Below the pieces are notes generated by a model that had not been told where the DNA came from, searched no databases, and saw only the letters and a program-made list of their open reading frames with translations. 37,354 nucleotides of DNA from assembly GCA_021846045.1 (NCBI GenBank), contig JAJZCM010000015.1, positions 1-37,354 on the forward strand, given 5' to 3'. This DNA comes from a bacterium (GTDB lineage: Bacteria; Elusimicrobiota; Elusimicrobia; UBA1565; UBA9628). Each line of letters starts with the position of its first letter. Positions within the stretch are counted from its first letter, which is position 1. Both the position numbers and the translations under genes were made by a program. Of this stretch, positions 22,575-37,354 are shown piece after piece.

Positions 22575-23465
22575 ATGCCTGTTTAAGGCAAAGTCAAGGG
22601 CTGAAGAGAGGTCTTCAAACCGGAATTTAAAACCCGCGGCTTCCAGTTTTCCAGGGAACGCCCTCTGACTAGACAAAAGAACGGCGGAAACCTCGCCTAA
22701 ACCCAAGCCGAGGGCCCAACGAGGAACGAAGGTCCAGGCCGGTCTCTTGAGCATTCCCGCAAGAAGAGACGCAAAATCGCTGTTGCGAACGGGTTGAGGA
22801 GATACCGCATTGACCGGCCCAAAAACCTGGGAATCAATCAAGAAAAGAATCATTGAGATCAAATCCTCAAGAACAATCCAGCTCATCCATTGCCGGCCGC
22901 TTCCCAAACGCCCGCCGATGCCCAGTCGAAAAGGAAACGCCAAATGCCGCAAGGCCCCGCCCTCACGGGACAAGACGATGCCCATTCGCAAGGAAATCGT
23001 CCGAACCCCTAAATTTTGGGCGATCGAAGCTTCCCGCTCCCAATCAACGCACAATTTTCCGAGAAAGTCATCTCCCGGCTTGGAAGATTCGCTCAACTCC
23101 TCATCATCACGGTCTCCATAAAAGCCGCAAGCCGAAGCGTTGATCAAGACCTTTGGTTTTTCCTTTGCCTGAGAAAGAGCCGCGACTAGGGCGCGAGTCG
23201 GAAGAATTCGGCTGTCGTAAATTTGTTTTTTTCGGCGCATATCCCAGCGCCCGTTAATAATGGACTCTCCGCATAAATTGATGACCGCGTCCGCGCCTTC
23301 AATTGCGGACTGCCATTCGCCGGAGCTTTTTCCGTCCCAAACGACCGAAGGAAATTCCTGGTAAGGCTTCCGGGATAAAACCACGACTTCATGGCCCTTG
23401 GAAAACAAAGTTTTTCGCAGTTGTCCCCCAATAAAACCCGTTCCTCCGGCAATCACGATCTTCAT
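22572..23465 (-). CDS. TIGR01777-family NAD(P)-dependent epimerase/dehydratase-like protein (YfcH-like)
   Basis: The product is 297 residues, the usual size of this family. Translation starts at the ATG at 23465, giving MKIVIAGGTGFIGGQL, the Rossmann glycine motif at the very N-terminus. Family hallmarks follow: INLCGESI, the SACGFYGDR segment with the SDR-type tyrosine region, LRMGIVLSREGG, and a C-terminal segment ending in the FRFEDLSSALDF pattern. Members are extended short-chain dehydrogenase-like proteins whose substrate is mostly unknown; some relatives act in plastid or cell-division processes. The start overlaps the stop of the upstream RDD gene as TAATG, so the two are co-translated. 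The stop codon is part of a CCTAGGATAGATTA repeat. Confidence 0.88.
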   Translation of the reverse strand: MKIVIAGGTGFIGGQLRKTLFSKGHEVVVLSRKPYQEFPSVVWDGKSSGEWQSAIEGADAVINLCGESIINGRWDMRRKKQIYDSRILPTRALVAALSQAKEKPKVLINASACGFYGDRDDEELSESSKPGDDFLGKLCVDWEREASIAQNLGVRTISLRMGIVLSREGGALRHLAFPFRLGIGGRLGSGRQWMSWIVLEDLISMILFLIDSQVFGPVNAVSPQPVRNSDFASLLAGMLKRPAWTFVPRWALGLGLGEVSAVLLSSQRAFPGKLEAAGFKFRFEDLSSALDFALNRH

Positions 23466-24283
23466 TAGCGGTGAACCCGTGGAGGAGGGCCCTCCACAAT
23501 CAGGCGCGTATGCCTTTTGTCCAGGCAAACTGCGGAAATCCAATAGACATTCGTTCCCGCGCGCATCTGAAAAAGATTGGGGTCAAACATCTGTCTTAAC
23601 GCGCCTCTAAATTCCACAGCGTTTCCGCTCGCCTCGGCCAAATCAGCCAAGGAATCGGTATAGGTTCCATGCCGGGCTTTGTAAGCGTTTTCAATTTTTG
23701 CAAGCAAATAAAGGGCATCGGCGGACTTCTTGATTTTTACTTGGTCGCCAAAACCGGATGCGGAAAAAAGCCCGTGAACCAGAAACCCGTAGATAAAAAC
23801 AAGAACGCAAACCGCGGCAACAAAAAGCATATTGGACTCCGCCCGGCTTTTTGGGCGCTCTTGAACTACGGTCGTCCCGGACATCAAATCATGAAGAGTT
23901 CTTGAGTCCGCGCGAAAAAACGCGAACCAGAAGCCGAAATTAAAAAAAACCGAGCTCAAAATTTGCCCGGCCGCCCGAATTAAGGACTGCAAAAAACCGG
24001 GATGGCGGCCGTTCCCGTCGACGACGACGATTCCCATCAGCCTCTTGCCGACCGTCCCGCCTTTGTGAACTCCGATAGACTGGTAGACCCCGTAAAGAAA
24101 TATCCAAAAAACCGAAACAAGCAGCGGCGTCAAGAAAATCGGCCAAGAATAAGAATGAGCCATCGCCCACAAACTCAGCGTCAACCCGGCCACGAAGGGG
24201 GTCAAATCCAAAACATAAGCGATAAACCGCTCGTTAATCGTCGCCGGCGTCAAAACCCGGTCTTGAGGAATCCCTTGTTCCAT
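23465..24283 (-). CDS. RDD-family membrane protein with C-terminal pilin-like segment
   Basis: This 272-residue protein has an RDD domain in residues about 15-140. Arg and Asp occur in NERFIAYVLDLTP, the basic GGTVGKRLMGI loop lies between two membrane helices, and RTLHDLMSGTTVV follows after the last helix, all typical of the family. A further helix (FVAAVCVLVFIYGFLVHGLF) precedes an external tail. In the tail, LAKIENAYKARHGTYTDSL looks like the helix-plus-loop of type IV pilin-like proteins, similar in style to the lipoprotein at 2299-2784. RDD proteins are often ion-transport or membrane-assembly factors of poorly known role. The gene is first in a two-gene unit with the epimerase. The region before the start holds palindromic repeat copy D, and no RBS is evident. 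Confidence 0.8.
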   Translation of the reverse strand: MEQGIPQDRVLTPATINERFIAYVLDLTPFVAGLTLSLWAMAHSYSWPIFLTPLLVSVFWIFLYGVYQSIGVHKGGTVGKRLMGIVVVDGNGRHPGFLQSLIRAAGQILSSVFFNFGFWFAFFRADSRTLHDLMSGTTVVQERPKSRAESNMLFVAAVCVLVFIYGFLVHGLFSASGFGDQVKIKKSADALYLLAKIENAYKARHGTYTDSLADLAEASGNAVEFRGALRQMFDPNLFQMRAGTNVYWISAVCLDKRHTRLIVEGPPPRVHR

Positions 24284-24297
24284 AACTGTTCGCTTCT

Positions 24298-24393
24298 GTA
24301 ACTACTCGCGTCACCCCGACGAAAGTCGGGGTCCAGAGCAACAATTTTCTGGATTCCGGCTTTCGCCGGAATGACGAACCTGAGCAGTTACTT
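24298..24393 (+). repeat. 96-bp double-hairpin repeat, copy D, intergenic
   Basis: GTAACTACTCGCG-TCACCCC... to ...GAGCAGTTACTT is the same length and nearly the same sequence as copy A, with both hairpins perfect. It lies between the divergent RDD and ACT-protein genes. GCTTCT occurs directly before it (24292-24297) and directly after it (24394-24399), so a 6-bp target duplication is possible. Confidence 0.85.
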
Positions 24394-24402
24394 GCTTCTT
24401 AA

Positions 24403-24411
24403 TGATAGAAT
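24403..24411 (+). promoter_or_regulatory. Extended -10 element for the ACT-domain gene
   Basis: TG-A-TAGAAT ends seven bases before the ATG at 24419 and no Shine-Dalgarno lies between. Transcription would begin at or next to the start codon, so the mRNA may be leaderless. No good -35 is seen. Confidence 0.4.
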
Positions 24412-24418
24412 AAAAATT

Positions 24419-24829
24419 ATGAGAATCGAACTCCTTAAGCAATTCAGCATCTTTATGCCGAACCGGCCCGGATCCTTGGCCGCGATGACGCGGCTATTCG
24501 CCAACCAAGGGGTCAACCTCATCGGTATCGCTTCCGAAATCTCGAATGATTCGGGCTTAGTCCGGGTCGCGGTTCCGGAAGGAACGGATGTTTCGGGAAT
24601 TCTCACCCAGGCTGGATTTGCCAGCGTGGAAACAAATCTTCTCTCCATCGAACTGGCCGACAAACCGGGAGAACTTTCAAGAATCACAAAGGCCTTAGCC
24701 GACAATCACGTGAATATCACTACCATCTACGGAACCGCTGTCGGCGGAAATCAAACCCGCATTCTCATCGCGGCGGAAAACACGCCCAAGGCCAAGAGCG
24801 TTTTGGAAAGCCTTACATTCGACGTTTAA
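24419..24829 (+). CDS. Tandem ACT-domain protein
   Basis: The 136-residue product consists of two ACT-like domains, at residues about 6-68 and 70-134. The first opens IFMPNRPGSLAAMTRLFANQ and the second IELADKPGELSRITKALADN, both with the RPG/KPG ligand-binding turn. ACT domains bind amino acids as regulatory ligands, and stand-alone double-ACT proteins of this size are widespread with mostly unknown partners. I use the ATG at 24419. The track's earlier ATG lies in the palindromic repeat and would prepend repeat-encoded residues. The 3' end overlaps the convergent htpX gene by 17 bases, so neither gene has room for a private terminator. No metabolic enzyme is adjacent to suggest the ligand. 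Confidence 0.85.
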   Translation: MRIELLKQFSIFMPNRPGSLAAMTRLFANQGVNLIGIASEISNDSGLVRVAVPEGTDVSGILTQAGFASVETNLLSIELADKPGELSRITKALADNHVNITTIYGTAVGGNQTRILIAAENTPKAKSVLESLTFDV

Positions 24830-25715
24830 GGGCTTCTATTCTAGCGTCCAGCGGCGGGTGACTGGCAAAAAGCGCGGCGATGAGCCCCCGGCCGTGCCCG
24901 TTGATTTTGAAAGTTGAAAGAGCCGGGGCGCGATTGTCTTGACCTGACAGCGTGGTCTGAAGAGACTCAAGAGCGTGAATCATGGTCTGCGGACTCGTCA
25001 GATGGGCCGAGCTGGAATCGGCGGCGTATTCCCTCCGACGCGAAAACCAATAGATGATGGGGGAAGCCAAAATAAACAAGACCGTTTCCAAGGCGTTGAT
25101 CAAAAGAAACTGCGCGATAAAGCCGAGCCCGCCGCGCTCATCCTCTCCTTTCTGCATCGCGTTTTCAATCAAAAAGGCCAGAACTTGCGCGGCAAAAATA
25201 ACGAAGGTGTTGACGACGCCTTGCAAAAGCGTCATCGTCACCATATCGCCGTTGACGATGTGGGATATTTCGTGACCGATGACGCCGTCAACGGCGCTTG
25301 AATCCATGTTTTCCAAAAGCGAGCTGGAAATCGCCAAAAGCGCGCGGCGGCGGCTGGGGCCCGTGGCGAAAGCATTGATCTCGGGGCTCTGGTAAATCCC
25401 AATTTCCGGCACGGTCTCAAGCCCCGCGCGCTGGCAAAGACTTTGCACCTTGGCCACGACTTGAGTTTCCAAATCTCCTCGCGGATTCGCCGCGTCAATG
25501 ACCTGAACCCCCAAAGACATTTTCGCCATCCAGCGGGACAGCTGAAGCGAAATAAAAGCGCCGCCGAATCCAAAAAGAGCGCACATGACGAGAAGGGACT
25601 GGTAGTTGATTCCCCGCGATCCCAACCAAGGCTGAAGCCCCAACAGGCTGATAACGGAAGAGATGACCAAAAGGACCAACAAATTGACGGCGATAAAGAG
25701 AACGATGCGCTTCAT
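24813..25715 (-). CDS. htpX: Membrane zinc metalloprotease HtpX (M48B)
   Basis: HtpX is an inner-membrane endopeptidase of envelope quality control, with its catalytic site on the cytoplasmic side. The 300-residue length is typical. The zinc site HEISH is at residues 148-152, and the third ligand, glutamate, is in RRREYAADSSS near residue 229. Membrane helices are at the N-terminus (two) and flanking the zinc region (two). SPEINAFATGPSRRRALLA is a family motif. A strong RBS (AGGAGG) sits five bases before the ATG, and a TATAAT -10 box lies upstream. It is the last core-type gene before the restriction island, and its promoter region is shared divergently with hsdM. Confidence 0.95.
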   Translation of the reverse strand: MKRIVLFIAVNLLVLLVISSVISLLGLQPWLGSRGINYQSLLVMCALFGFGGAFISLQLSRWMAKMSLGVQVIDAANPRGDLETQVVAKVQSLCQRAGLETVPEIGIYQSPEINAFATGPSRRRALLAISSSLLENMDSSAVDGVIGHEISHIVNGDMVTMTLLQGVVNTFVIFAAQVLAFLIENAMQKGEDERGGLGFIAQFLLINALETVLFILASPIIYWFSRRREYAADSSSAHLTSPQTMIHALESLQTTLSGQDNRAPALSTFKINGHGRGLIAALFASHPPLDARIEALKRRM

Positions 25716-25720
25716 AAAAA

Positions 25721-25726
25721 CCTCCT
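25721..25726 (-). promoter_or_regulatory. Strong ribosome binding site of htpX
   Basis: AGGAGG, a perfect Shine-Dalgarno, lies five bases upstream of the htpX ATG (minus strand). It shows that the organism uses canonical SD initiation, in contrast to the SD-less starts of nearby genes. Confidence 0.8.
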
Positions 25727-25776
25727 AAGACTGCGACCAATCAGGGCCTTAATTCTCAAATTACGACCCTAGCTTG

Positions 25777-25782
25777 ATTATA
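25777..25782 (-). promoter_or_regulatory. -10 box of the htpX promoter
   Basis: The minus strand reads TATAAT here, about 60 bases before the htpX start. At 17-base spacing the -35 would be AATATT, a poor match, so only the -10 is supported. Confidence 0.4.
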
Positions 25783-25828
25783 CAATTTTACCTCAATTCA
25801 ATATTCCGCAGCCCGTGGTGATGAGCCA

Positions 25829-25837
25829 TGGTATACT
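25829..25837 (+). promoter_or_regulatory. Extended -10 promoter of hsdM
   Basis: TG-G-TATACT ends ten bases before the hsdM ATG (25848). No Shine-Dalgarno lies between, so transcription should start within a few bases of the ATG and give a nearly leaderless mRNA. Confidence 0.5.
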
Positions 25838-25847
25838 ATTTGTGTCT

Positions 25848-27332
25848 ATGACGAAACTCGATCTCGAAACGCTCAAGAGTCACTTGTGGGAATCGGCGAA
25901 TATTCTCAGAGGCAGCATTGACGCTTCCGACTACAAGAACTATATCTTCGGCCTGCTGTTTCTCAAAAGGCTGTCCGATGTTTTTGATGAGGAAGCCGAA
26001 AAGTTGATCAAGGAGGGCAAGAGCAAGAAAATCGCCTTCGAGGAAGAGGACGAGCACGAATTTTTTGTTCCTGCGAAGGCTCACTGGAAGCATCTCACCA
26101 CGCTAACCCAGAATCTTGGTGACGCCCTCAACAAGGCCAACGACCAGCTTGAAGAGCATAACCGATCTCTCGAGGGCGTTCTCTCGGCTACCGACTTTAA
26201 CGACAAGGACCGGCTTCCCGATAGCGCTCTCTCAAGACTGATCGTTCATTTTTCAAACATTAATCTTCGCAATGAAAATCTTGCCGAGCCGGACATGCTT
26301 GGCCGCGCCTATGAGTATTTAATCGCGCAATTTGCCGATGACGCGGGTAAAAAGGGCGGCGAGTTCTACACTCCAAAAGAAGTTGTCAGCTTACTGGTTG
26401 ATATCCTTGATCCCCAAGAAGGCATGTATGTTTGCGATCCGGCTTGCGGTTCAGGCGGTATGCTGGTTCAGGCCGTGCATCATCTAAAATCCCTTCATCA
26501 GAACGCGAAAAACATCGTGCTTCACGGCCAAGAGAAAAATATCGGCACCTGGGCCATCTGCAAGATGAATATGCTCCTTCATGGAATTTCAGGGGCGCGA
26601 ATCGAGAAGGGCGACACCATCCGGGAGCCAAAGCTTCTTCAGAAGGGGAAACTCGTCGAGTACGACATCGTCATCGCGAACCCTCCCTTTTCGCTTAAGA
26701 ACTGGGGCGTTGAGTCCGCCGAAAACGACGCCTTTGGCCGCTTCAGATACGGATTGCCGCCGCAGAGTTACGGCGACTTCGCCTTTGTCCAGCACATGAT
26801 CGCGACCTTAAAGCCCTTTGGCCGCGCCGGCATCGTCTTGCCGCATGGCGTACTCTTTCGCGGCGGGGCCGAAGGCAAGATCAGGCAGGGCCTCATTGAG
26901 GAAGATTTGATCGAGGCGGTGATCGGCCTGCCCTCGAATATATTTTCCGGAGCCGGTATCCCGGTCTGTCTATTCATCTTGAACAAGAAAAAACCGGCGC
27001 AGAGAAAAGGCAAGGTTTTCTTTCTGTATGGGGCGCGAGACTTTAAGCAACTTAAGAGCAAAAACGAGTTAAGGCCGGAGGATATCGATAAGATCGTCAA
27101 GGCCTATCGCTCTTGCGGAACCGCTGAGAAATATTCGAGGCCGGTCAGCTTGGATGAAATTCGCCGCAATGACTATAACCTCAACATTCCTCGCTACGTT
27201 GATATCACGGAAGACGAAGCGCCGATTGATGTCCAGCAAACAATCAACGATTTGATCGTGTTGAAAAAAGAGCGCGCGCAGGCCGAGGAAAAAGTCGAGG
27301 GGTATCTTAAGGAGCTGGGGTACAAGGCATGA
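25848..27332 (+). CDS. hsdM: Type I restriction-modification methyltransferase subunit HsdM
   Basis: HsdM is the N6-adenine methyltransferase that acts with HsdS. It is 494 residues, with an HsdM_N helical domain (about 1-130) and then the N6_Mtase domain. SAM-binding motif I reads CDPACGSGGML (residues about 196-206) and catalytic motif IV is NPPF (about 278-281). GGEFYTPKEVV just before motif I is a family hallmark. I start at the ATG at 25848, which opens with the conserved LDLETLKSHLWESANILRG. The longer track ORF begins at a GTG inside the promoter region. It is the first gene of the island and is transcribed divergently from htpX. hsdS and hsdR lie 2.7 and 7.8 kb downstream, an unusually wide separation. 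Confidence 0.96.
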   Translation: MTKLDLETLKSHLWESANILRGSIDASDYKNYIFGLLFLKRLSDVFDEEAEKLIKEGKSKKIAFEEEDEHEFFVPAKAHWKHLTTLTQNLGDALNKANDQLEEHNRSLEGVLSATDFNDKDRLPDSALSRLIVHFSNINLRNENLAEPDMLGRAYEYLIAQFADDAGKKGGEFYTPKEVVSLLVDILDPQEGMYVCDPACGSGGMLVQAVHHLKSLHQNAKNIVLHGQEKNIGTWAICKMNMLLHGISGARIEKGDTIREPKLLQKGKLVEYDIVIANPPFSLKNWGVESAENDAFGRFRYGLPPQSYGDFAFVQHMIATLKPFGRAGIVLPHGVLFRGGAEGKIRQGLIEEDLIEAVIGLPSNIFSGAGIPVCLFILNKKKPAQRKGKVFFLYGARDFKQLKSKNELRPEDIDKIVKAYRSCGTAEKYSRPVSLDEIRRNDYNLNIPRYVDITEDEAPIDVQQTINDLIVLKKERAQAEEKVEGYLKELGYKA

Positions 27333-27341
27333 GGAAGAAGC

Positions 27342-28145
27342 ATGTTATTTTTTATTGACGAAAGCTGGCAGCTGTCGGCTGACAAAAAGCACAAAGCGGG
27401 AGTTTTGTGCGCGATTCCCATTGACAGCCAGAATTTCAACGACTTTTCAGTCCAATTATTCAATCTCAAGAAAAAACATCTTGGATTTGAGGGCGGCAAC
27501 TTGGAAATCAAAGGGCACAAATTATTACAGCGTTACTACTTTAAGTTAGAGAAAAAATTTCAGGATAAAAGCGTCCAGCTCAACCTAGCGCGGGACATAT
27601 TGTCTCTGTGCGAAAAGAGCGGCCTCAAGGCTTTTGCGACCGTTACTTTTCCTAAAGAAGAGTTGGATTTGGCCTGCGCTAACCCAAACCAATTGGAGAG
27701 GCCATTTTTCTTTCTATTCGAGCGGATTAATCAATTCATGAGGGAAAATCACACCGACATGATTGCCAAACTGGTCTTCGATGATCGCGACGTTAAAACG
27801 AACAATCGCATATCGGCCAGCGTTAGTAATTTCCTTCACAAATCGCATGTAGGGAAATCGTTCGATCGCATATTGAAGGTCCCATTATTCGCCATTTCGA
27901 AGGAAAATGCGGGAATTCAGATGGCGGACATTTGCGGCTATATTATCGGCAGATGGTTTACGGGGGACAATGGTGAGATTTCCCAATTTTTCCGAAGGGT
28001 TGAATCTTTTCAATATGTGAGCGCGGAATTGGTCGGCAAGTTGCCCAACGGCGATCCCTGTCCTTTAAAAGGAATAAAAGTGATCAAAAAAGAACGGGCC
28101 GATCGTAAAAACATACCAATCGGCCCGGATTCTGATGAAGACTAA
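27342..28145 (+). CDS. DUF3800-family protein (RNase H-like fold), first copy
   Basis: This 267-residue protein shows the DUF3800 pattern. FFIDESW is at the N-terminus (Asp6, Glu7), a second acidic strand LVFDDRD lies near residue 145, and GIQMADICGY near residue 191 supplies the 'Q.AD' motif. The family is predicted to adopt an RNase H-like/integrase fold with clustered acidic residues. It is often found in mobile elements and near defence genes, but its activity is not settled. A GAGG motif upstream gives a plausible RBS, and the gap to hsdM is nine bases, so it is co-transcribed with the methyltransferase. The last 11 bases overlap a small basic ORF. A second, divergent DUF3800 gene sits before hsdR. 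Confidence 0.8.
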   Translation: MLFFIDESWQLSADKKHKAGVLCAIPIDSQNFNDFSVQLFNLKKKHLGFEGGNLEIKGHKLLQRYYFKLEKKFQDKSVQLNLARDILSLCEKSGLKAFATVTFPKEELDLACANPNQLERPFFFLFERINQFMRENHTDMIAKLVFDDRDVKTNNRISASVSNFLHKSHVGKSFDRILKVPLFAISKENAGIQMADICGYIIGRWFTGDNGEISQFFRRVESFQYVSAELVGKLPNGDPCPLKGIKVIKKERADRKNIPIGPDSDED

Positions 28146-28299
28146 AATAGAGCTGGCAGTTCAACGCGCCCAGATGGGTCAACGTTCAACTTATCGCAAG
28201 GCCAGAGGGCCCCACACCAACCCTGACAAGATTATAGCAGACCTTGGACAATCCGTCAATAGAAAGAAACGATCGGGGTACATAGGGAAGAAAAAATGA
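28135..28299 (+). CDS. Small basic protein, 54 aa, unknown
   Basis: This ORF is below the track's length cut-off. It starts at an ATG inside the 3' end of the DUF3800 gene (11-base overlap) and ends in a TGA overlapping the ATG of the next gene as ATGA. The peptide, starting MKTKIELAVQRAQMGQRS and ending in RKKRSGYIGKKK, is rich in Lys and Arg and has no hydrophobic segment. The tight overlaps on both sides, and the fact that it fills the otherwise empty 150 bases between two genes, argue that it is translated and couples the two. I recognise no family. A small nucleic-acid-binding partner is a guess from charge alone, and chance coding cannot be excluded. Confidence 0.45.
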   Translation: MKTKIELAVQRAQMGQRSTYRKARGPHTNPDKIIADLGQSVNRKKRSGYIGKKK

Positions 28300-29816
28300 C
28301 GAAAAAATATGCGCATCCCCTTGAGGAGAATCCATTATTCGGATCATTGCCGATCGAGCTTTCAGAAAACATCCGTTCCATAAATCCCTGGTGGAGAAAC
28401 GAGCCATTTCCTGATTTGCCGAAATTTCATCGTTGGGTATTCAAGCGATTAAAGCATCTGCTTGATCAAGGCATGACCCCGGCTACGGTTTTGCGCGGGC
28501 CGCGCCGAGTTGGGAAAACCATATTGATCAAGCAAATCATTCAGGACCTTCTCGACGCCGGGGTCCCGTCCGGCCATATCCTTTATGTCCCATTTGATGA
28601 GCTTCCATCCCTCCAAGGAATCCAAGAACCGGTGTTGGCGGTGGCGCGCTGGTTTGAAAGGGAGATTATAAAATCTTCCTTCAACGCTATCGGCAAGACC
28701 GCGCAGCCGGCGTATCTTTTTTTCGACGAAGTTCAAAATTTGGAATCTTGGGCGCCCCAAATAAAAAATCTTGTGGACAATCACTCAATCCGCGCCCTCA
28801 TTACCGGCAGCTCGTCTTTGCATATCGAAGCGGGCCGCGACAGTTTGGCCGGACGCATCACGACCGTTGATTTGGGCCCGCTGTTTCTTCGGGAGATTGC
28901 CGAGCTTAGATTCGGGGAAGCGACCGGCCCATTTTGGGGCGACAACGGGTTGGACAAGATCGTCCAGCGCGATTTCTGGATGCAGGCCAAGGAGCGGGCC
29001 AAGCAGGAGACGAGCCTACGAACGCAATCCTTTGCCGCTTTTTCCGAACGCGGCGCCTATCCTATCGCGCATGAGAAAGCGAACACTCCCTGGCCGGAAG
29101 TCGCCGATTATCTAAACGAAACCGTCATCCAACGGGCTATTCAGCATGACCTGCGCATAGGAAGCAGGGGACAGAAGCGGGATGAGAAACTTCTGGAAGA
29201 AGTCTTCCGTCTGTGCTGCCGCTACGCCGGACAAGCCACGGGGCAAAGGGCGTTTGTTCCAGAAATTCGTCAAGCGTTGTCCGGCAATATCGGCTGGAAT
29301 CGGGTTCTTAACTATTTGCGTTTCCTCGATGGGACGCTGCTGATTCGCTTGATTAAGCCGCTAGAACTTCGACTGAAAAAACAGAAATCGCCGCCTAAAA
29401 TCTGCCTTTGCGATCATGCTCTGCGGGCAAGCTGGCTTCAGGAAGTCGTGCCCTTAGATCCAACCGGATTGTCTCAGAATCCGCATCTGACGGACTTGGC
29501 CGGCCACTTGGCCGAGAGCGCCTTGGGTTATTTCCTGGCTTCCATCCCGAACTTGGATACGGCCTATTTCCCGGCCCGCGCCGCCGAGCCGGAGGTGGAC
29601 TTCGTCCTGACGGTGGGGACCAAGCGCATTCCCGTCGAGGTGAAGTATCGCAAGCGCATCGATCCCCACGATGACACCGTGGGTTTGCGGGCGTTTCTTG
29701 AGAAGTCCGCCTATAATGCGCCGTTCGGCCTTCTTGTGACCTTGGATGATGATGTTGCCGTGTTGGACCCGAGGATTATTCCAATTTCGCTTTCTTCGCT
29801 ACTGTGGTTGAAATAG
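28296..29816 (+). CDS. AAA+ ATPase with DUF4143 and nuclease-like C-terminal domain
   Basis: The protein has 506 residues. Walker A is RGPRRVGKT (about 66-74) and Walker B LFFDEVQN (about 140-147), followed by a sensor-like ITGSSSL. DUF4143 follows at about 290-430. The C-terminus has EPEVDFVL and then IPVEVKYR, a D-x(n)-E-x-K arrangement seen in PD-(D/E)xK nuclease folds and common in this ATPase family. Such ATPases are abundant in bacteria and archaea, and their function is largely unknown; some sit in defence or toxin-antitoxin-like settings. Here the gene is embedded between hsdM and hsdS, which is not a standard type I subunit position. The start overlaps the preceding small ORF as ATGA, and a GGGAAG motif provides an RBS. 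Confidence 0.85.
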   Translation: MTKKYAHPLEENPLFGSLPIELSENIRSINPWWRNEPFPDLPKFHRWVFKRLKHLLDQGMTPATVLRGPRRVGKTILIKQIIQDLLDAGVPSGHILYVPFDELPSLQGIQEPVLAVARWFEREIIKSSFNAIGKTAQPAYLFFDEVQNLESWAPQIKNLVDNHSIRALITGSSSLHIEAGRDSLAGRITTVDLGPLFLREIAELRFGEATGPFWGDNGLDKIVQRDFWMQAKERAKQETSLRTQSFAAFSERGAYPIAHEKANTPWPEVADYLNETVIQRAIQHDLRIGSRGQKRDEKLLEEVFRLCCRYAGQATGQRAFVPEIRQALSGNIGWNRVLNYLRFLDGTLLIRLIKPLELRLKKQKSPPKICLCDHALRASWLQEVVPLDPTGLSQNPHLTDLAGHLAESALGYFLASIPNLDTAYFPARAAEPEVDFVLTVGTKRIPVEVKYRKRIDPHDDTVGLRAFLEKSAYNAPFGLLVTLDDDVAVLDPRIIPISLSSLLWLK

Positions 29817-29823
29817 AAAACGT

Positions 29824-30027
29824 ATGACGCTTCAAGAATTTCGAGAATCACTGCTCGACCAAACCCTGACCTTTCTCTGGCGGCAATGCTCGGCTTTGGA
29901 AATGAGTCGCTATGAGCCCAGGCTTTCGACCGCAGGACTCCCGTCCGATCTGCAACAAAAGACCGCGCTAAAACTGTTGAGCAACATTTTTGGATTAGAA
30001 TATGGCGAACCAAGTCACCACGCTTAA
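29824..30027 (+). CDS. Small ORF, 67 aa, between ATPase and hsdS
   Basis: The ORF begins seven bases after the ATPase stop and overlaps the hsdS start by 26 bases, so it fits the packed gene order. The opening, MTLQEFRESLLDQTLTFLWRQ, reminds me of the N-terminus of AbiEi-like/nucleotidyltransferase-partner proteins, in which a 'WRQW.ALG' motif leads into a longer protein. After residue 25 I see no such continuation, so this may be the stub of a truncated gene rather than an intact small protein. No convincing RBS. The resemblance is from memory and weak. Confidence 0.35.
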   Translation: MTLQEFRESLLDQTLTFLWRQCSALEMSRYEPRLSTAGLPSDLQQKTALKLLSNIFGLEYGEPSHHA

Positions 30028-31249
30028 GATGGAGCAAAAGTTCAAGAAAACTCCCGCCGGGGAGATTCCGATGGATTGGGATGTCGTCAAATTGGGTGAT
30101 ATATCAATTCAACCGGAAGAGCGATTTGTCCCTGTCCCGGGAGATGCCCGTCCTTACATTGGCCTCGAACATATTGGTAGTGGTACCGGACGTCTATTAT
30201 CCACTGGAACCTCCACGACGGTATCAAGTCTGAAGTCAATTTTTCGGGCAGGAGACATTCTTTTTGGAAAATTGCGCCCAAATCTGAAAAAGGTTGTCAT
30301 GCCTCCGTTTGCTGGAGTATGTTCCACTGACATTATGGTCATCCGACCCAAGGATGGATTCTCCCGATCTTTCATGTTCTACCGTCTTCAATCCGCAACA
30401 GCGTTCGATTTTGCCGTAGGAACATCGGGCGGCACTAAGATGCCACGGACATCTTGGCCGCTTTTTAGAAATTATGCCTTCCCCTGTCCACATTTAGCCG
30501 AGCAGAAAAAGATCGCCGAGATTCTTTCTACTGTTGATGACGCCATTGAGAAAACCCGCGCCGGCATTGAAAAAAGCAATCAGCTCAAAAAAGGCCTGAT
30601 GCAAACCCTCCTCACCCGCGGCATCGGGCATAAAAAGTTTAAGAAGAGTCCCGCTGGGGAGATTCCGGTGGAGTGGGAACTATTGACCCTTGGGAAAATC
30701 TCTGAGATACGGAGAGGGGCCTCTCCACGGCCAATTGGAGATCCGAAGTTTTTTGGAAATGGACGGGGATGGGTCAGAATTGCAGATGTTACCAGAAGCA
30801 CGAAATTCCTCCGAACAACCGAACAGCAGCTTTCCCATCTTGGTGAAGCTGGCAGCGTAAAAGTGGATCACGGCGACATCATCATGAGCATATGCGCAAC
30901 AATAGGGAAACCTATAATTGTGGATATGGAGGCGTGTATCCATGACGGTTTCGTCCTCTTCGAAAAATTATCGCCACGAATCCTCAAGGAGTTTCTCTAC
31001 TACTTCCTGCAATGGAAAGAGAACTACTTAGCAGGCAAAGGCCAGCCAGGCGCTCAAAAGAACCTGAACACAACAATCGTGGGAGAAACGGAAATACCTC
31101 TTCCTCCTATCAGTCAACAGAAGTATATCGCCGAGATTTTGTCCGCAGTGGATATGGAAATCGAAAAACAAGAATCGGCGCGTATAATACTTCAGAGGCT
31201 TAAAAAGAGCTTGATGCAAGTGCTTTTAACTGGCAGATTACGGATATAA
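30002..31249 (+). CDS. hsdS: Type I restriction-modification specificity subunit HsdS
   Basis: HsdS (415 residues) carries two target-recognition domains that read the two halves of a bipartite DNA site. TRD1 spans about 20-165 and TRD2 about 220-365. Each begins with nearly the same sequence, KFKKTPAGEIPMDWD and KFKKSPAGEIPVEWE, and ends in the conserved coiled-coil spacer EQKKIAEILSTVDDAIEKT or QQKYIAEILSAVDMEIEKQ. The protein is therefore an intact two-domain subunit with strong internal repeats that favour domain shuffling. The ATG at 30002 and one at 30029 are both possible; the latter opens directly with the TRD1 leader. The start overlaps the small upstream ORF, suggesting coupled translation. 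The recognised sequence cannot be predicted from reading. Confidence 0.95.
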   Translation: MANQVTTLKMEQKFKKTPAGEIPMDWDVVKLGDISIQPEERFVPVPGDARPYIGLEHIGSGTGRLLSTGTSTTVSSLKSIFRAGDILFGKLRPNLKKVVMPPFAGVCSTDIMVIRPKDGFSRSFMFYRLQSATAFDFAVGTSGGTKMPRTSWPLFRNYAFPCPHLAEQKKIAEILSTVDDAIEKTRAGIEKSNQLKKGLMQTLLTRGIGHKKFKKSPAGEIPVEWELLTLGKISEIRRGASPRPIGDPKFFGNGRGWVRIADVTRSTKFLRTTEQQLSHLGEAGSVKVDHGDIIMSICATIGKPIIVDMEACIHDGFVLFEKLSPRILKEFLYYFLQWKENYLAGKGQPGAQKNLNTTIVGETEIPLPPISQQKYIAEILSAVDMEIEKQESARIILQRLKKSLMQVLLTGRLRI

Positions 31250-31250
31250 T
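31245..31250 (+). promoter_or_regulatory. -10 box for the DUF3644 gene
   Basis: A perfect TATAAT overlaps the hsdS stop codon and ends ten bases before the next ATG (31261). There is no Shine-Dalgarno, the same geometry as at hsdM. It suggests that the accessory module can be transcribed independently. No good -35 is present at 17 bases. Confidence 0.4.
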
Positions 31251-31260
31251 TAGAAAATAA

Positions 31261-32277
31261 ATGAAGAAACGCTGGGAGTATCTTCGCCTCCTCGAAATAT
31301 CCTTGCACGCCATACGTTCGGCAATTGACTGCTTTAACCGTGTCTACGATCCCTATAAAATTGAGACGTGCCTGATCCTCATGACGAATGCCTGGGAATT
31401 GTTGGGGAAAGCTATCCTTGTCAAGACAAGAGGTAAGAAAAGTATTCAAAAAGATCGCCACGGCAATACCCTCCCGGCGGAGCAAATAGTCACTAAACTC
31501 CGAAGTTTTGAATTTTTAGATGAGAATCAAGAGCACTGCCTTCAACAAGTTATTTCACTCAGAAACCACGCATCTCATCATCTTCTTCCCGCAATCCCGG
31601 ACGAGGTGCTTCATCACTTGTTTTATTTTGGATGCAAGTTTTATAAAGATTTAGTCGTCAAACAATTTCCAAGACAGCCCAATATACCGAAACAAAACTT
31701 CCTGTCAATCTCATTTGATAATCTAACAACGTATGCAGAAAAGGTCCAGTCGCTCGTTGGAAGGATGAAAAGAAGCAAACAAGATATGCAACTTGTGTGG
31801 CTACTTGAAAGAGGTGTGTGCTTTGATGGCGTGAAATACATTTCGCAGGATCAATTCGAACGGCAATATAAAAATAAACGCAAAGTTTTGCCGCACCTCC
31901 AGGTAGGCAAATTCTTAAAGGACTCTGAGATGATCAGGGTTGTCCTAATTCAAGCCCCTAAAAACTTTACGGCAGACATAACTCTACGCAAGGGGAAACC
32001 AACTGAGTCGGCTCTGCCTGTTGCCATCAAGAAAACTGACTTGGAGAAAGATTACCCATATCTGACCGTAGAAATGGCCAGCAAACTTGGCAAAAGCCAA
32101 AACTATGTAGCCTATACGCTTAAAAAGCTGAATTACAAAGAGGATTCCCGCTATCACCAATCCGTGCGGTCTTCAAAAAGTGGCACTGTCAACCGTTATT
32201 CAGAAAGCGCATTGAATGACCTTAAGAAATTTCTGGATGGAAATCCTGGATTTAATCCTTATGCAAATGAACCCTAG
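31261..32277 (+). CDS. DUF3644-family protein (HEPN-like) with C-terminal helix-turn-helix-like region
   Basis: The protein has 338 residues. The N-terminal half has the DUF3644 signature: LILMTNAWELLGKAIL (about 37-52), then LRNHASHH with Arg101 and His106. This forms the R-x4-H motif that in HEPN proteins is the metal-independent RNase site. HEPN families frequently act as abortive-infection or toxin ribonucleases, and DUF3644 genes often accompany restriction systems. The C-terminal region contains LTVEMASKLGKSQNYVAYTLKKL, which looks like a helix-turn-helix. The gene begins 11 bases after hsdS and overlaps the next gene by 11 bases. The sequence looks more AT-rich than the core genes. RNase activity is inferred from the motif only. 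Confidence 0.72.
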   Translation: MKKRWEYLRLLEISLHAIRSAIDCFNRVYDPYKIETCLILMTNAWELLGKAILVKTRGKKSIQKDRHGNTLPAEQIVTKLRSFEFLDENQEHCLQQVISLRNHASHHLLPAIPDEVLHHLFYFGCKFYKDLVVKQFPRQPNIPKQNFLSISFDNLTTYAEKVQSLVGRMKRSKQDMQLVWLLERGVCFDGVKYISQDQFERQYKNKRKVLPHLQVGKFLKDSEMIRVVLIQAPKNFTADITLRKGKPTESALPVAIKKTDLEKDYPYLTVEMASKLGKSQNYVAYTLKKLNYKEDSRYHQSVRSSKSGTVNRYSESALNDLKKFLDGNPGFNPYANEP

Positions 32278-32950
32278 ACCTAATTTTAACGAATCCACTC
32301 TCTCTGAAAAACCCGCGATCGAGCAATTGGTCGGCATGGGTTACGCATTCATCCCGGGTGACAAGCTCGACCCGGAGGCAACACGATCCACGCTCGATAA
32401 AGCTGTCCGCCGAACTTTGCAGGGGTGCGTAGCGGCAATCGCTTTCTTGACCGTGTTAGTGGTTTCAGCACGAGCAAACTCTCCCAAGCCAGCTGGTCTC
32501 AGAAACACGACAGAACGCCACACTATTCAAAATCCTACTATGCCGAGCGCATTTGCCCAGAAAAAGGATATACCCGTCAGTCGGGATTCGGCGAACTCAT
32601 CAGCAGAAAAATCCAGCGTTTATGAGACCCTTTTACTCGCCCTCTCCGCGATGGAAGGTATTCTGTTTGCAATGTTGGGTGTTATTGTCCAAGTCGATTC
32701 CGCTCGCTCCCTAAGAATGGGTTCCAAAGTGTTCCCGATTATTCCATACGTATCTTTTGCACTAACAGCCTTCTGGCTCCAAGCATTGTTTCTCATTCCG
32801 TTTGACATCGGACGTCTTAAGCCAGTGTGTGCTTATGCCATATTTACCGTCAGCGTCATCGCAATCGGAGCAATCGCGGTTCGGGCCATCCGCGCACTCG
32901 ATCCTAACCATGTGGTTGACCGAACACTGGATTGGTATTTCAATGAGTAG
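32267..32950 (+). CDS. Chimeric membrane protein: HsdR N-terminus fused to a four-helix membrane domain
   Basis: I start at the ATG at 32267 (227 residues); an ATG at 32261 is equally placed. Residues about 8-49 (NESTLSEKPAIEQLVGMGYA... to LDKAVRR) are nearly identical to the N-terminus of HsdR at 35107, minus 29 residues. The rest is unrelated: a membrane helix (CVAAIAFLTVLVVSA), a polar Ser/Thr/Asn-rich stretch, then three helices (YETLLLALSAMEGILFAML; IIPYVSFALTAFWLQALFL; YAIFTVSVIAIGAIAV). I recognise no family in the membrane part. It overlaps the DUF3644 gene by 11 bases and the next gene by 8. It may be a genuine fusion that brings restriction-complex contacts to the membrane, or a recombination scar joined by chance to a membrane gene whose own start was lost. 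Confidence 0.6.
   Translation: MNPRPNFNESTLSEKPAIEQLVGMGYAFIPGDKLDPEATRSTLDKAVRRTLQGCVAAIAFLTVLVVSARANSPKPAGLRNTTERHTIQNPTMPSAFAQKKDIPVSRDSANSSAEKSSVYETLLLALSAMEGILFAMLGVIVQVDSARSLRMGSKVFPIIPYVSFALTAFWLQALFLIPFDIGRLKPVCAYAIFTVSVIAIGAIAVRAIRALDPNHVVDRTLDWYFNE
32286..32412 (+). repeat. Duplicate of the hsdR 5' coding region (left copy)
   Basis: Two blocks match hsdR. Block 32286-32374 equals 35114-35202 with 4 differences in 89 bases, all at third codon positions and synonymous. Block 32375-32412 equals 35290-35327 with mostly synonymous changes and one replaced codon. The 87 bases between them in hsdR (29 codons) are absent here. Confidence 0.9.
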
Positions 32951-34247
32951 CATTGTAGCAACCAGCCGAAAAAGTCAAGCGGCGGATTCTCTAGTAGACT
33001 TGCTCATTCAACTTGCTGTTGGTCGAGAATATCGCACACTGAGGTACTTCTCCGATTCTCTCCTTCGTCGAGTTGAGAATCTTCCAGCAGATCGGGTTAA
33101 AAGAAAAGCCGATCCGCTTATTTTTGCCTTTTCTCAATTTATTCTGGACCCGATGTTCGATGATGAACAGGCTCGACGAACGGTTAATGATCTGTTTGGT
33201 TGCCTTGTCGAGCATCGTGTTGGTCGGATTCCCCAAGGGCTAGATGACATCGACAGGCTGGTATTTAACGGTCTAATTCCTCGGTTCATGATGGCTTCCA
33301 AGACGGGCGACTCCAAAACCATAACTCGCGCGGCCGAGGGCGTTGTCGAGCTTCCACGAATACTTTCCGGTTTCATTATCGCCTCCGATTTGGAAAGATT
33401 TAGAAAGTTGGCCGATTTGTTGCCAGCCCTCTTTCACGACGAACTTAAGAATCGGAGCTACGTCCAATTTCAACTGGCCTCGGCAAATCTCATAGACGCG
33501 CTGTCTGCCTGGCAGCGGATGGAAAACTCAAAAGCTGAATTTACGCCGCATGTTGAGCAATTGCTTCGCGCCATGATCGCCGTCCAGAAAATTTTATTGG
33601 AGAACTCGAATGGCCCCGAAGTAGTAGGGCCTCTGGCGGACAATATTCTTGCGGTTATGCGCGCGCTCATCAAAATAGAGTACGAGGAGAAAATGTTCCC
33701 AGTCGCACTGAACGCCCTTAAATCCGAGTGTGACGCGATCGACAAATACCCCAGTCTAAGACCGCATCTCTTTGCCGATCTTGAGAATCATGCGTCCCTA
33801 GCGGCACAATATGCCGATCCGAAAGACTTCCGATCAGTTCTTCAATATTGGTCTCTTGCAATGAGGGATGGCTTCCCGCAAGATTTGTACTCGAGATTTG
33901 TGGGTCTAGTCGCGCAACATTGCGACAAACAAAGAATTCTTGATGTCGCAATCCAATTCGCATCGAAAGAATTCCATTTTCTTGTTACTGAACCTGCCCA
34001 AAAAATTTATCCTCAATTTTACCAATACCCCTTGTTTGTTGCCGCCTTGGGAATCGAAAGCAAAGCGACATTCCCTGAAGATTTCAGCAAATTGACCAGA
34101 GCTATTATGGAGCGCCTGCAGGGTCTGGAAAGGACCACACAAGAGGCTGTTCGGAAGAATATCCGGACACTTTGGCGTGAAATGGTCAATGCGGACATGA
34201 GCGATGAGGACTACGATCGGGTATGGGAAAAGCTTCTCGCAATTTAA
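32943..34247 (+). CDS. All-helical protein of unknown function
   Basis: I start at the ATG at 32943 (434 residues), which overlaps the membrane-protein stop by 8 bases; the longer track ORF begins inside that gene in another frame. The sequence is soluble and mostly alpha-helical with no signal peptide: evenly spaced Leu/Ala-rich helices such as RFRKLADLLPALF and NILAVMRALIKIEYEEKMF, like a helical-repeat (HEAT/TPR-style) scaffold. I see no catalytic motif and recognise no family. Its start overlaps the membrane protein's 3' end and its stop overlaps the DUF3800 start as TAATG, so the three are one translational unit. A partner of the membrane protein is a reasonable inference; anything more specific is not supported. 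Confidence 0.65.
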   Translation: MSSIVATSRKSQAADSLVDLLIQLAVGREYRTLRYFSDSLLRRVENLPADRVKRKADPLIFAFSQFILDPMFDDEQARRTVNDLFGCLVEHRVGRIPQGLDDIDRLVFNGLIPRFMMASKTGDSKTITRAAEGVVELPRILSGFIIASDLERFRKLADLLPALFHDELKNRSYVQFQLASANLIDALSAWQRMENSKAEFTPHVEQLLRAMIAVQKILLENSNGPEVVGPLADNILAVMRALIKIEYEEKMFPVALNALKSECDAIDKYPSLRPHLFADLENHASLAAQYADPKDFRSVLQYWSLAMRDGFPQDLYSRFVGLVAQHCDKQRILDVAIQFASKEFHFLVTEPAQKIYPQFYQYPLFVAALGIESKATFPEDFSKLTRAIMERLQGLERTTQEAVRKNIRTLWREMVNADMSDEDYDRVWEKLLAI

Positions 34248-34978
34248 TGTTTCAGAATAATTTGGATTCGCCACTCTCTGACCTGAATAAAAACGAAAAA
34301 ACAGGGGGAACTTCGGCTTATCGCTACATTTTCTTGGATGAGGGCGGCAATCTTGATTTTTCTCCAAGCGGAACAAAATATTTTACGCTGACGACTATCA
34401 CGACAAGTCGGCCGTTTTTGCTCTATGGGCCGCTGTCGGACCTGCGCTACGATTTAATAGAGTTTGGGCTCGATATTGAGCATTTTCATGCCGCAGAAGA
34501 CAGGCAAGCCGTTAGGGATAAGGTTTTCGCCGAAATCACCAAGGCCATGCCCGACCTTAGGATCGACTCCCTTATCGTTGAAAAAAGCAAGACCGTCCCG
34601 GCGTTGCGCACGGTTGAGCAATTTTATCCAGGGATGCTGGGATATTTGCTGAGGTATTTGTTCAGGGGGAAGGCGATAGGGAATTGCGATAAGGTCATCG
34701 TCATTACTGATTCCTTGCCGGTGAACAAAAAGCGCCAAACTATAGAAAAGACCGTCAAAATAACCTTGGAAAGGATGTTGCCGGCGCAAACTCCTTTCTA
34801 CCTGTTGCACCATGCTTCAAAGGCTTGTCTCTACCTGCAAGTCGTCGACTATATCAACTGGGCCATTTTCCGCAAGTGGGAAGGAAGCGACCGGCGTAGC
34901 TATGACTTGATCTCCGGAGGGATACAAAGCGAATATGATATTTTTAAGAAGGGAACGACCTATTACTACAAAAAGTGA
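34247..34978 (+). CDS. DUF3800-family protein, second copy
   Basis: The chosen ATG at 34247 overlaps the preceding stop as TAATG (243 residues); an upstream in-frame ATG at 34223 lies inside the previous gene. The family pattern is present: YIFLDEGGN near residue 30, a second acidic strand VIVITDS near 153, and YLQVVDYINWA near 200 in the position of the 'Q.AD' motif, with Val replacing Ala. It is only distantly similar to the DUF3800 protein at 27342, so it is not a recent tandem duplicate. It is the last gene of the accessory module before hsdR. The activity of the family is unproven; an RNase H-like fold is expected. Confidence 0.7.
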   Translation: MFQNNLDSPLSDLNKNEKTGGTSAYRYIFLDEGGNLDFSPSGTKYFTLTTITTSRPFLLYGPLSDLRYDLIEFGLDIEHFHAAEDRQAVRDKVFAEITKAMPDLRIDSLIVEKSKTVPALRTVEQFYPGMLGYLLRYLFRGKAIGNCDKVIVITDSLPVNKKRQTIEKTVKITLERMLPAQTPFYLLHHASKACLYLQVVDYINWAIFRKWEGSDRRSYDLISGGIQSEYDIFKKGTTYYYKK

Positions 34979-34990
34979 CCGCCCCGGCTA

Positions 34991-35019
34991 CTCCTTGCGG
35001 AGAGAGCCCCGTGGGCTCT
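34991..35019 (+). other. Tandem hairpins before hsdR
   Basis: CTCC-TTGC-GGAG (34991-35002) is followed at once by AGAGCCC-CGT-GGGCTCT (35003-35019). The second stem is seven perfect base pairs, mostly G-C at its centre. There is no T-run, so this is not a clear intrinsic terminator. It could slow or end transcription from the module or structure the hsdR leader. Confidence 0.4.
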
Positions 35020-35044
35020 TGTCACCAGAGCGGAACCTTTATCT

Positions 35045-35064
35045 CTACTATAGTAGGGTAGTAG
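35045..35064. promoter_or_regulatory. Palindrome upstream of hsdR, possible operator
   Basis: CTACTATAGTAG is a perfect 12-base palindrome, followed after GG by TAGTAG, repeating its right arm. It lies about 45 bases before the hsdR ATG, in the only sizeable non-coding gap of the island, where a repressor or controller site would be expected. No C-protein-like regulator gene was seen. Confidence 0.35.
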
Positions 35065-35106
35065 AAAATCCGGTTTTTGTCAATAGAAATTTTTCGGCAA
35101 TAGCGC

Positions 35107-37354
35107 ATGAATCTTAACGAATCCACCCTCTCCGAAAAGCCTGCGATCGAGCAATTGGTCGGCATGGGTTACGCATTCATCCCGGGTGACAAGCTCGACC
35201 CGCAGGAAACTGAGAGTCCCGAGCGCAACTCCCGTCGCGATGTTGTTCTAGTGGACAGGCTTCGTCGAAAACTTGCCGAGCTTAACCCTGAGGCGACCTC
35301 GTCCACGCTCGACAAAGCTGTCCGCCGCGTCACAAATATTGTGGGCACGGATATTCTCGATGAGAATAAGAGCTTTCATAAGGACCTGATCTCGAATGTG
35401 ACTATTGAGCAGGAAACCAACGGCCGCCCTTTCCGGCGAGAGGAGAATGATCCGCGCCTTCAAGGACAGGGGCCCCTTGGCCCCCGGCGAGGCCAGACCG
35501 TTCAATTCATCGACTTTGATAACCCGGAGAAAAATGAGTTTCTGGTTGTGAGCCAGTTCTGGGTCAAGGGACCTCGGCTTTCAGATCGGCCTGATATCGT
35601 GATCTTTGTCAATGGAATCCCGCTGGCCGTCATTGAATGCAAAAGCCCGATTGCGAAAGAGACGGGCATTATTGACGCCCTAGAACAGCTTGCGCGCTAC
35701 CAGCGGGAAATTCCGGCGCTTTTTCGCACGAATCAGCTTCTCATCGGCGCGAACCTCTTTGGCGCCAAATACGGAGTCGTGGGCGCGAGCCCCGATAATT
35801 TCCACGAATGGAAAGAAAAGCCGGAAGAAAAGTTGCCGAACTTGAGCGAGCATCCATCGGTTAAGGAGATGCTGGCGCTTAAGCTAATCAAGAAGGGTGA
35901 CTTGCCCAAGACGCCGGCGGCCCAAGACGTTCTCATCGCGGTTCTCTTTAACAAGCGGAACCTCTTGGACATTATCCGCAACTTCATCGTTTTCGACATG
36001 GACGAAGGAAAAATTCGGAAGAAAATTTGCCGCTATCAGCAGTTTACAGCCGTGCAAAAAATAGTTCATCGCGTCCTTGATGAAAAAGAGAAAAAAGGCA
36101 TCGTCTGGCATTGGCAGGGATCTGGGAAATCTCTCACCATGCTCTTTGCCGCCTTGAAGCTCCGGCGAGAAGAGGCGCGGCTCAAAAACCCTTGCTTTCT
36201 CGTGGTCACGGATAGGCGAGACTTGGATAAGCAGATTTCGGACAACTTTCGCGACTGCGGCTTTCCCAATCCCATCCGCGCGGAAAATTCGCGTGAGCTT
36301 TACGCGATGCTTTCCAATGGCGTCGGCCAAACGATCATGACGACGGTGCAGAAGTTTAGAACGCCGCTCAACAAGCCGCTCTCGGAAGCCAAGAATATCA
36401 TCGTTTTGACCGATGAGGCGCACCGGACCCAATACGGCAATTTCGCTCTTAATCTCAGAAAGGCCCTGCCCAACGCCTCCTTTTTCGCCTTCACCGGAAC
36501 GCCGCTGGATAAGCGCTACCGCAACACCTATCGGCTTTTTAGCCCCGAGGGCGAGAGATACCTCGACAAGTACGGTATCATTGAAGCCGAGAAAGATCAG
36601 GCGACTGTCCCCATCAAATACATGAGCCGCCTGGTCAATCTTCAACTCGTTGGCGCGTCTTTAGATTCATTGCTTGCGGGACTTTTCCCCGGTAAAAATA
36701 AGAAGGAGCTGGTGGAGATTAAACGGCAGTACGCAACGCCCGACGTTTTGGCCAGCGCTCCCCAACGCATCAATCGGATCGCCATGGATATTGTTGAGCA
36801 TTACAGCCAGGCGATTAAGCCGAACGGATTTAAGGCGATGATTGTCGTTGAAACCCGGGAGGCGGCTGATTTATACAAAAAGGCCCTGGATCGGCTCATC
36901 AACCCCAGTCTCTCCGCAGTTGTCATGACCGTCAACCGTGGCGAAGAATGGGCCGAGAAGTACGCCCTATCGGATGTTGAAGAAAGCGCTATCAAGGACC
37001 GCTTTAACGATCCCAAGAGCAGTCTCAATTTTCTAATCGTCTGCGACAAGCTTTTGACCGGCTTTGACGCCCCCATTCTTCAAGCGATGTATCTGGACAA
37101 GCGCTTAAAAGAGCATACCTTGCTTCAGGCGGTAGCGCGGACCAACAGAACGTATCCGAGGAAAAATTTCGGCCTGATCATTGATTACGCCGGGCTTGGC
37201 AAAGAATTGGCCGACACGCTCAAAGAATTCAGCGCCGAGGATATTGAGGGACTTTTCCGGACCGACGACGTCGAGCGCGAGTTAAGCGATCTCGGCGATT
37301 ATCACAGGGAAGCTGTAAAATTTTTTTCGGGCATTTCGCTGGATGGAGAGCCAA
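35107..37354 (+). CDS. hsdR: Type I restriction endonuclease subunit HsdR (3' end outside window)
   Basis: The frame is open from the ATG at 35107 to the window end (about 749 codons) and is missing from the ORF track because it has no stop. HsdR translocates DNA with an SF2 motor and cleaves it. The nuclease motif is present: Asp163 in RPDIVIF and Glu177-Cys-Lys179 in AVIECKSP. Walker A is WQGSGKS (about 337-343), the DEAH box is TDEAHRTQYG (near 435), motif III is FFAFTGTPL, and the motif VI region is LLQAVARTNRTYP. All visible motor and nuclease residues are intact. The usual length is about 1000 residues, so roughly the last quarter is missing. It is separated from hsdS by 3.9 kb of accessory genes, and its 5' end is duplicated at 32286. 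No clear RBS. Confidence 0.95.
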   Translation, partial: MNLNESTLSEKPAIEQLVGMGYAFIPGDKLDPQETESPERNSRRDVVLVDRLRRKLAELNPEATSSTLDKAVRRVTNIVGTDILDENKSFHKDLISNVTIEQETNGRPFRREENDPRLQGQGPLGPRRGQTVQFIDFDNPEKNEFLVVSQFWVKGPRLSDRPDIVIFVNGIPLAVIECKSPIAKETGIIDALEQLARYQREIPALFRTNQLLIGANLFGAKYGVVGASPDNFHEWKEKPEEKLPNLSEHPSVKEMLALKLIKKGDLPKTPAAQDVLIAVLFNKRNLLDIIRNFIVFDMDEGKIRKKICRYQQFTAVQKIVHRVLDEKEKKGIVWHWQGSGKSLTMLFAALKLRREEARLKNPCFLVVTDRRDLDKQISDNFRDCGFPNPIRAENSRELYAMLSNGVGQTIMTTVQKFRTPLNKPLSEAKNIIVLTDEAHRTQYGNFALNLRKALPNASFFAFTGTPLDKRYRNTYRLFSPEGERYLDKYGIIEAEKDQATVPIKYMSRLVNLQLVGASLDSLLAGLFPGKNKKELVEIKRQYATPDVLASAPQRINRIAMDIVEHYSQAIKPNGFKAMIVVETREAADLYKKALDRLINPSLSAVVMTVNRGEEWAEKYALSDVEESAIKDRFNDPKSSLNFLIVCDKLLTGFDAPILQAMYLDKRLKEHTLLQAVARTNRTYPRKNFGLIIDYAGLGKELADTLKEFSAEDIEGLFRTDDVERELSDLGDYHREAVKFFSGISLDGEP
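35114..35327 (+). repeat. hsdR 5' coding region matching the left duplicate (right copy)
   Basis: Bases 35114-35202 and 35290-35327 are the counterparts of 32286-32374 and 32375-32412. The 87 bases in between (encoding QETESPERN...AELNP) are present only here. This is taken as the ancestral arrangement because it continues into a full hsdR. Confidence 0.9.

Follow-up and report, generated by a model that had tools for sequence, protein, structure and literature searches.

Truncated 5' copies of hsdR accompany cargo genes in type I restriction operons of Elusimicrobiota

A type I restriction-modification operon of an Elusimicrobiota bacterium carries, between hsdS and hsdR, a truncated copy of the 5' end of its own hsdR, with cargo genes separating this stub from hsdR itself. 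We analyzed the operon in a window of 37,354 nucleotides (nt), a whole contig of a 93-contig, 97%-complete assembly, and refer to compared loci and genomes by L and G numbers, respectively. Overall, the locus is of a known kind and carries a seemingly unreported, recurrent signature of cargo capture. We consider it likely that cargo accretes serially at the start of hsdR by recombination anchored in hsdR, with the old 5' end remaining as a scar after every event.

The stub (32264..32412; forward strand, as for all study-locus features below) represents hsdR codons 1 to ~75 with an internal deletion. It matched the hsdR 5' end at 93% identity over 101 nt (E 5e-33) and, after a deletion of 84 nt, at 80% over a further 54 nt. 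Its ATG overlaps the stop codon of the DUF3644 gene, as expected of an hsdR start under translational coupling. Stub positions 32302-32381 aligned with hsdR 35130-35209 through ~60 identical nt with diverged flanks on both sides, a block that may be a recombination or conversion tract. Within the first 33 nt, stub and hsdR showed five differences, four of them synonymous, which suggests two once-functional alleles. Downstream, the stub continues in frame into an open reading frame (ORF) for a membrane protein (32413..32950) that would belong to the cargo of a later insertion. The sequence-only reading of this DNA had described a chimeric membrane protein; the ORF is real and two-part, but its N-terminal part is the partial copy of the hsdR 5' end. 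A further hsdR stub was sought before the second DUF3800 gene (DUF3800b), and the comparison was not significant.

Stubs recurred beyond this operon. We surveyed ~85 oriented hsdR loci by aligning the beginning of every hsdR to the DNA upstream of that same gene, using the four following 300-nt segments of hsdR and the opposite strand as controls. At E<=1e-4 on the coding strand, the first 300-nt segment gave 14 matches and the next four gave three, including one extension of the L057 stub, while the opposite strand gave one match in all. At E<=1e-5, matches were found in 9/83 distinct loci vs 1/332 control-segment tests with the L057-stub extension set aside (Fisher test, with loci that are not fully independent). 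Nine Elusimicrobiota loci bore stubs: the study locus, L038, L042 (=L104), L046, L047 (=L048), L057, L085, L095, and L101. L046 and L057 had two each, and a weaker stub was present in L062. The Elusimicrobiota stubs were 14-136 codons long (the longest in L057), lay on the coding strand, started within the first ~10 hsdR codons, and belonged to several unrelated hsdR families. Omnitrophota loci contained a 66-codon stub in L174 (E 2e-40), an 11-codon stub between an ATPase-type gene and a RhuM-like gene in L175 (E 1e-6), and a weak one in L153.

Every stub-bearing locus had cargo between the stub and hsdR. Most stub starts overlapped or closely followed the stop codon of the preceding gene, either hsdS or earlier cargo, like the real hsdR start, and the L042 stub begins at the hsdS-hsdR (S-R) junction where the cargo-free locus L041 begins hsdR. 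Stop codons interrupted the stubs of L038 and L046. Many stubs had lower amino-acid than nucleotide identity to their hsdR, a relation that is nearly always reversed between functional hsdR pairs; L174, L057, and the conserved first part of the study-locus stub were exceptions. The same Abi_C-type 266-aa cargo, with an hsdR stub directly after it, occurred in two genomes (L046 7876-8676 and L101 10973-11773, hsdR-oriented), and L175 (9735-12998, hsdR-oriented) encodes a 738-aa protein that starts with an ATP-binding region of ABC/RloC-like type, followed by the 11-codon stub and then the RhuM-like gene.

The stub, a gene remnant between hsdM and hsdS, the mixed cargo described below, and the recurrence of stubs were directly observed, and from these we infer an order of insertion and a recombination route. 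Incoming DNA would bring cargo together with an hsdR 5' end. The hsdR part would recombine with the resident hsdR, and the other end would join within the first codons of the resident gene. This would regenerate hsdR downstream of the cargo and leave the old 5' end upstream as a decaying stub. Scars would look alike because restriction survives only those events that regenerate hsdR. At the study locus, an hsdS-DUF3644-hsdR arrangement would have come first, with the membrane, helical, and DUF3800b genes inserted afterwards, and we infer that DUF3644 was originally adjacent to hsdR.

Several observations weigh against this account. Neither a recombination intermediate nor a strain pair turned up among the compared genomes, many of which are metagenome-derived drafts. 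The route may not be general, because no stub was detectable in most cargo-bearing loci (~46/56 in Elusimicrobiota, 20/22 in Omnitrophota), and stubs were found in 0/9 cargo-bearing plasmid loci from other phyla. A search of plasmids with one N-terminal query likewise returned hardly any second hsdR copies. Decay was not uniform, as amino-acid identity did not fall below nucleotide identity in the L174 and L057 stubs. DUF3800b moved between hsdR families without homology, and some capture therefore needs another route.

The hsdR start could even be a dedicated, recurrent landing pad for cassettes of defense cargo that end in an hsdR 5' end and perhaps excise and re-integrate through these direct repeats, which we regard as doubtful. 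Were it true, type I operons would be recombination-driven, integrase-free cassette arrays, and stubs would record acquisition order across phyla. Local tandem duplication of the hsdR 5' end by replication slippage or template switching, with cargo inserted into or beside the copy later, would fit the 60-nt block shared identically by the study-locus stub and hsdR, since slippage can yield direct repeats. We find this unlikely, however: stub-bearing loci always have cargo between stub and hsdR, the arrangement recurs with unrelated cargo, and the predominance of synonymous early differences suggests two once-functional alleles. It is highly improbable that stubs are retained for a function, such as coupling the translation start of cargo to an upstream gene. 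In-frame fusions to cargo in the study locus and L085, and the overlap of stubs with the starts of cargo genes through ATGA or TAATG (L042 and L174), would agree with such a role, but the internal stop codons, the variation in length (11-136 codons), and the lowered amino-acid identity of most stubs, opposite to that of functional hsdR pairs, argue against it.

Serial accretion is also how we read the cargo itself. Relatives with 78-88% identical HsdM/HsdR held different genes in both the hsdM-hsdS (M-S) and S-R slots. Within the same hsdM/hsdR family, the M-S slot contained a nucleotidyltransferase-like gene and a ~357-aa gene in G003, G004, G006, L041, and L043; a DUF3800a gene, an ORF like the 54-aa ORF, and a ~358-aa gene in L038; and an AAA/DUF4143 gene with a 351-aa gene in L042. 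The study locus combined DUF3800a, the 54-aa ORF, AAA/DUF4143, and the remnant. The S-R slot was empty in L041 and L043 and otherwise housed a 295-aa gene (G006), genes of 306 and 616 aa (G003), three genes including one Schlafen AlbA_2 (G004), ORF6N and Fic (L042), or a 196-aa ORF, an AbiU2-HEPN gene, and an ORF6N-like gene (L038). Unrelated S-R cargo was also present in 9/14 plasmid type I loci of other phyla (SIR2, DarT, DUF4268, TIGR04141, Abi, and others). Cargo combinations are mixed, one gene is a remnant, and one was found at this locus only; both gaps therefore appear to be cargo ports with turnover, in which genes are, in all likelihood, added serially and swapped or lost independently.

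The sequence-only reading had instead proposed one composite system, and had suggested looking for several of its accessory genes together within hsdMSR loci of other genomes; the same set and order with hsdMSR was not kept in the other hosts examined. Joint action of the accessory genes and hsdMSR, as staged restriction plus an abortive response, is the least probable explanation of all: the junctions are tight and often overlapping, and the ATPase, HEPN, nuclease-like, and membrane proteins include several PADLOC candidate defense families, but relatives retain hsdMSR with other cargo in mixed combinations, the 67-aa gene is a dead remnant, the helical gene was found only here, and the DUF3800b homologs that we found lie outside this gene set.

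In the M-S slot, DUF3800a (27342..28145; Pfam DUF3800 4e-12) had a weak PADLOC match to PDC-M04A (3e-6) and a 66% identical counterpart in the same slot of L038. The 54-aa ORF that accompanies it (28135..28299) was kept after DUF3800a in L038 (57% over 30 aa, E 8e-7). The next gene (28296..29816; Pfam AAA_14 3e-27, DUF4143 3e-12; PADLOC PDC-S01 6e-33) was 76% identical to a gene in the same slot of L042 and 48% identical to genes in L011 and L012, which carry another hsdM family. The 67-aa ORF (29824..30027) aligned with a ~357-aa protein at its two ends and over a short stretch in the middle. The intact gene for that protein sits in the same place, between the nucleotidyltransferase-like gene and hsdS, in three close relatives, whose HsdM is 85-88% identical. 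Judging from this alignment, the ORF is the product of two in-frame internal deletions. A six-sequence model of the ~357-aa protein (predicted local distance difference test score, pLDDT, 70) had no significant PDB match, with winged-helix regulators among the weak matches only. The eight accessory genes named in the sequence-only reading are real ORFs, but two of them, the 67-aa ORF and, in its N-terminal part, the membrane ORF, are wholly or partly scars. No hsdS 5' stubs were found in the M-S gaps (0/47).

The S-R cargo starts with the DUF3644 gene (31261..32277; Pfam DUF3644 2e-20; PADLOC PDC-S19 2e-23), which is also located between hsdS and hsdR in L187, L188, and L066. DUF3644 belongs among the HEPN families (PMC3710099). 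The protein sequence here contains R101-N-H-A-S-H106, an Rx4H motif within the Rx4-6H pattern of HEPN proteins. By analogy, it could be a PrrC-like back-up RNase that fires if restriction is blocked. The proposed HEPN back-up role is therefore plausible on its own, but not as part of one composite system. We rejected its identification as a true PrrC or RloC, as the Pfam scan found DUF3644 only and no fused ABC-ATPase domain, making it at most PrrC-like in action. Neither the membrane ORF nor the helical protein (32943..34247) had a match in Pfam, PADLOC, or NCBIfam. The latter was predicted as all-helical with a pLDDT of only 58, and no relatives were found in 294 genomes of the phylum, plasmids, or viral contigs; with no homolog and a model too poor for structure search, we dropped it as a candidate conserved defense gene. 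DUF3800b (34247..34978; Pfam DUF3800 3e-7) had a 73% identical counterpart that precedes an hsdR of another family within the same genus (L085), as well as homologs away from hsd genes (L181, L182).

Directly after DUF3800b is a conserved three-helix element of ~60 nt (34979..35040). Across eight homologs its 19 pairs were 93% paired and seven had changed on both sides, values equaled by 0-2/500 shuffles. It also followed DUF3800b homologs in L190, L191, L193, L194, L206, L207, and L085, and was kept in unrelated contexts that included Roseobacter-group plasmids. DUF3800 proteins are predicted to adopt an RNase H fold and have been linked to noncoding RNAs (PMC10910872). DUF3800 motifs are characterized by covariation in a structure immediately 3' of the DUF3800 gene, as found here. 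The element resembles Rfam DUF3800-V (RF02964) in this position but differs in that, although it covaries, no Rfam family matched it at E<=1. DUF3800-V itself matched near more distant DUF3800 relatives in L200, L202, and L204, with the L200 and L204 matches antisense to the gene. Stem-rich sequence was also seen right after the stop codon of more distant DUF3800 genes (~20-38% identical; L195-L205). We rejected an integron-like cassette array, as inspection of the ORFs of 22000-37354 revealed no integrase, and the sole structured element, that of DUF3800b, is not repeated between cargo genes.

These cargo genes probably act as separate defense modules, as judged from the families to which they belong. 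DUF3800b would be an RNase H-fold nuclease with a structured element, and the AAA/DUF4143 protein probably an ATPase-nuclease. They lie between core genes of a known defense system, the position of embedded (PDC-type) genes, and this placement recurs in relatives. AAA/DUF4143 and DUF3644 matched PDC profiles, the membrane and helical proteins did not, and cargo here and in relatives together matched PDC-S01, S19, S04, S05, and M04A.

The core genes hsdM (25848..27332, frame open from 25815; Pfam N6_Mtase 1e-106 and HsdM_N), hsdS (30002..31249; two stretches of Pfam Methylase_S), and hsdR (35107..37354; TIGR00348 9e-167) together identify a type I restriction-modification system. Their order is broken by accessory genes in both gaps, so that defense-type genes are indeed built into the operon. 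All ORFs of the sequence-only reading were confirmed, and Pfam backed its hsdM, hsdS, two DUF3800, AAA_14/DUF4143, and DUF3644 assignments. The hsdMSR set is encoded with hsdR cut by the contig end at residue 749 of ~1015. As that reading had stated, the junctions are tight, except for the last, where a 128-nt spacer between DUF3800b and hsdR contains the structured element. The remaining HsdR C-terminus was searched for in the rest of the assembly and was not found. HsdM orthologs in three relatives were 85-88% identical, and HsdR relatives were found in Elusimicrobia metagenome-assembled genomes, which places the host in Elusimicrobiota. Promoter and terminator scans gave signal that barely exceeded shuffles and were not used. 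Another type I locus, from a different family and with an S-R gap of 6 kb, is present in this genome (G000:C91, L117). Directly downstream of the G006 hsd operon, L034 (2712-8972, minus strand) encodes a 2086-aa protein with weak NACHT/AAA matches. A YgjP/SprT-like metalloprotease gene stood beside hsdR in many type I loci of several phyla, adjoining it, mostly downstream, in L034, L126, L129, L131, L132, L133, L134, and L137.

Embedding of defense genes in type I operons is established, as with DarTG2 between hsdS and hsdR (PMC12255303) and in a 2024 preprint by Payne et al., as cited there. The study locus shares with these and the PDC families unrelated defense-type genes between hsd genes, and differs in having more cargo per operon, an M-S gene remnant, and hsdR 5' stubs. 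EcoprrI likewise has a HEPN-type nuclease gene, PrrC, within a type I operon (PMC12707154); the DUF3644 protein here shares the Rx4H motif and this location but lacks the ABC-ATPase domain. The closest parallel to the stubs is in effector-immunity arrays of type VI secretion systems and in orphan tips of Rhs and contact-dependent inhibition (CDI) systems, where sequential displacement is attributed to homology-facilitated illegitimate recombination (PMC5361080). There, as here, homology-anchored module insertion leaves truncated copies of the anchor gene beside displaced modules, in strings (two stubs each in L046 and L057). The polarity is a mirror image, as 3' ends are left in those arrays and hsdR 5' ends in restriction operons. 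We found no description of hsdR 5' stubs in the open PMC literature searched, a search that preprints and most subscription papers lay beyond.

Many defense genes are now being discovered within restriction operons, and hsdR 5' stubs would be a physical record of how such genes enter without breaking the operon. They predict where the next cargo would be placed, in what succession cargo was acquired, and by which testable recombination route. They may also serve as a sequence signature for embedded defense genes that profile searches miss.

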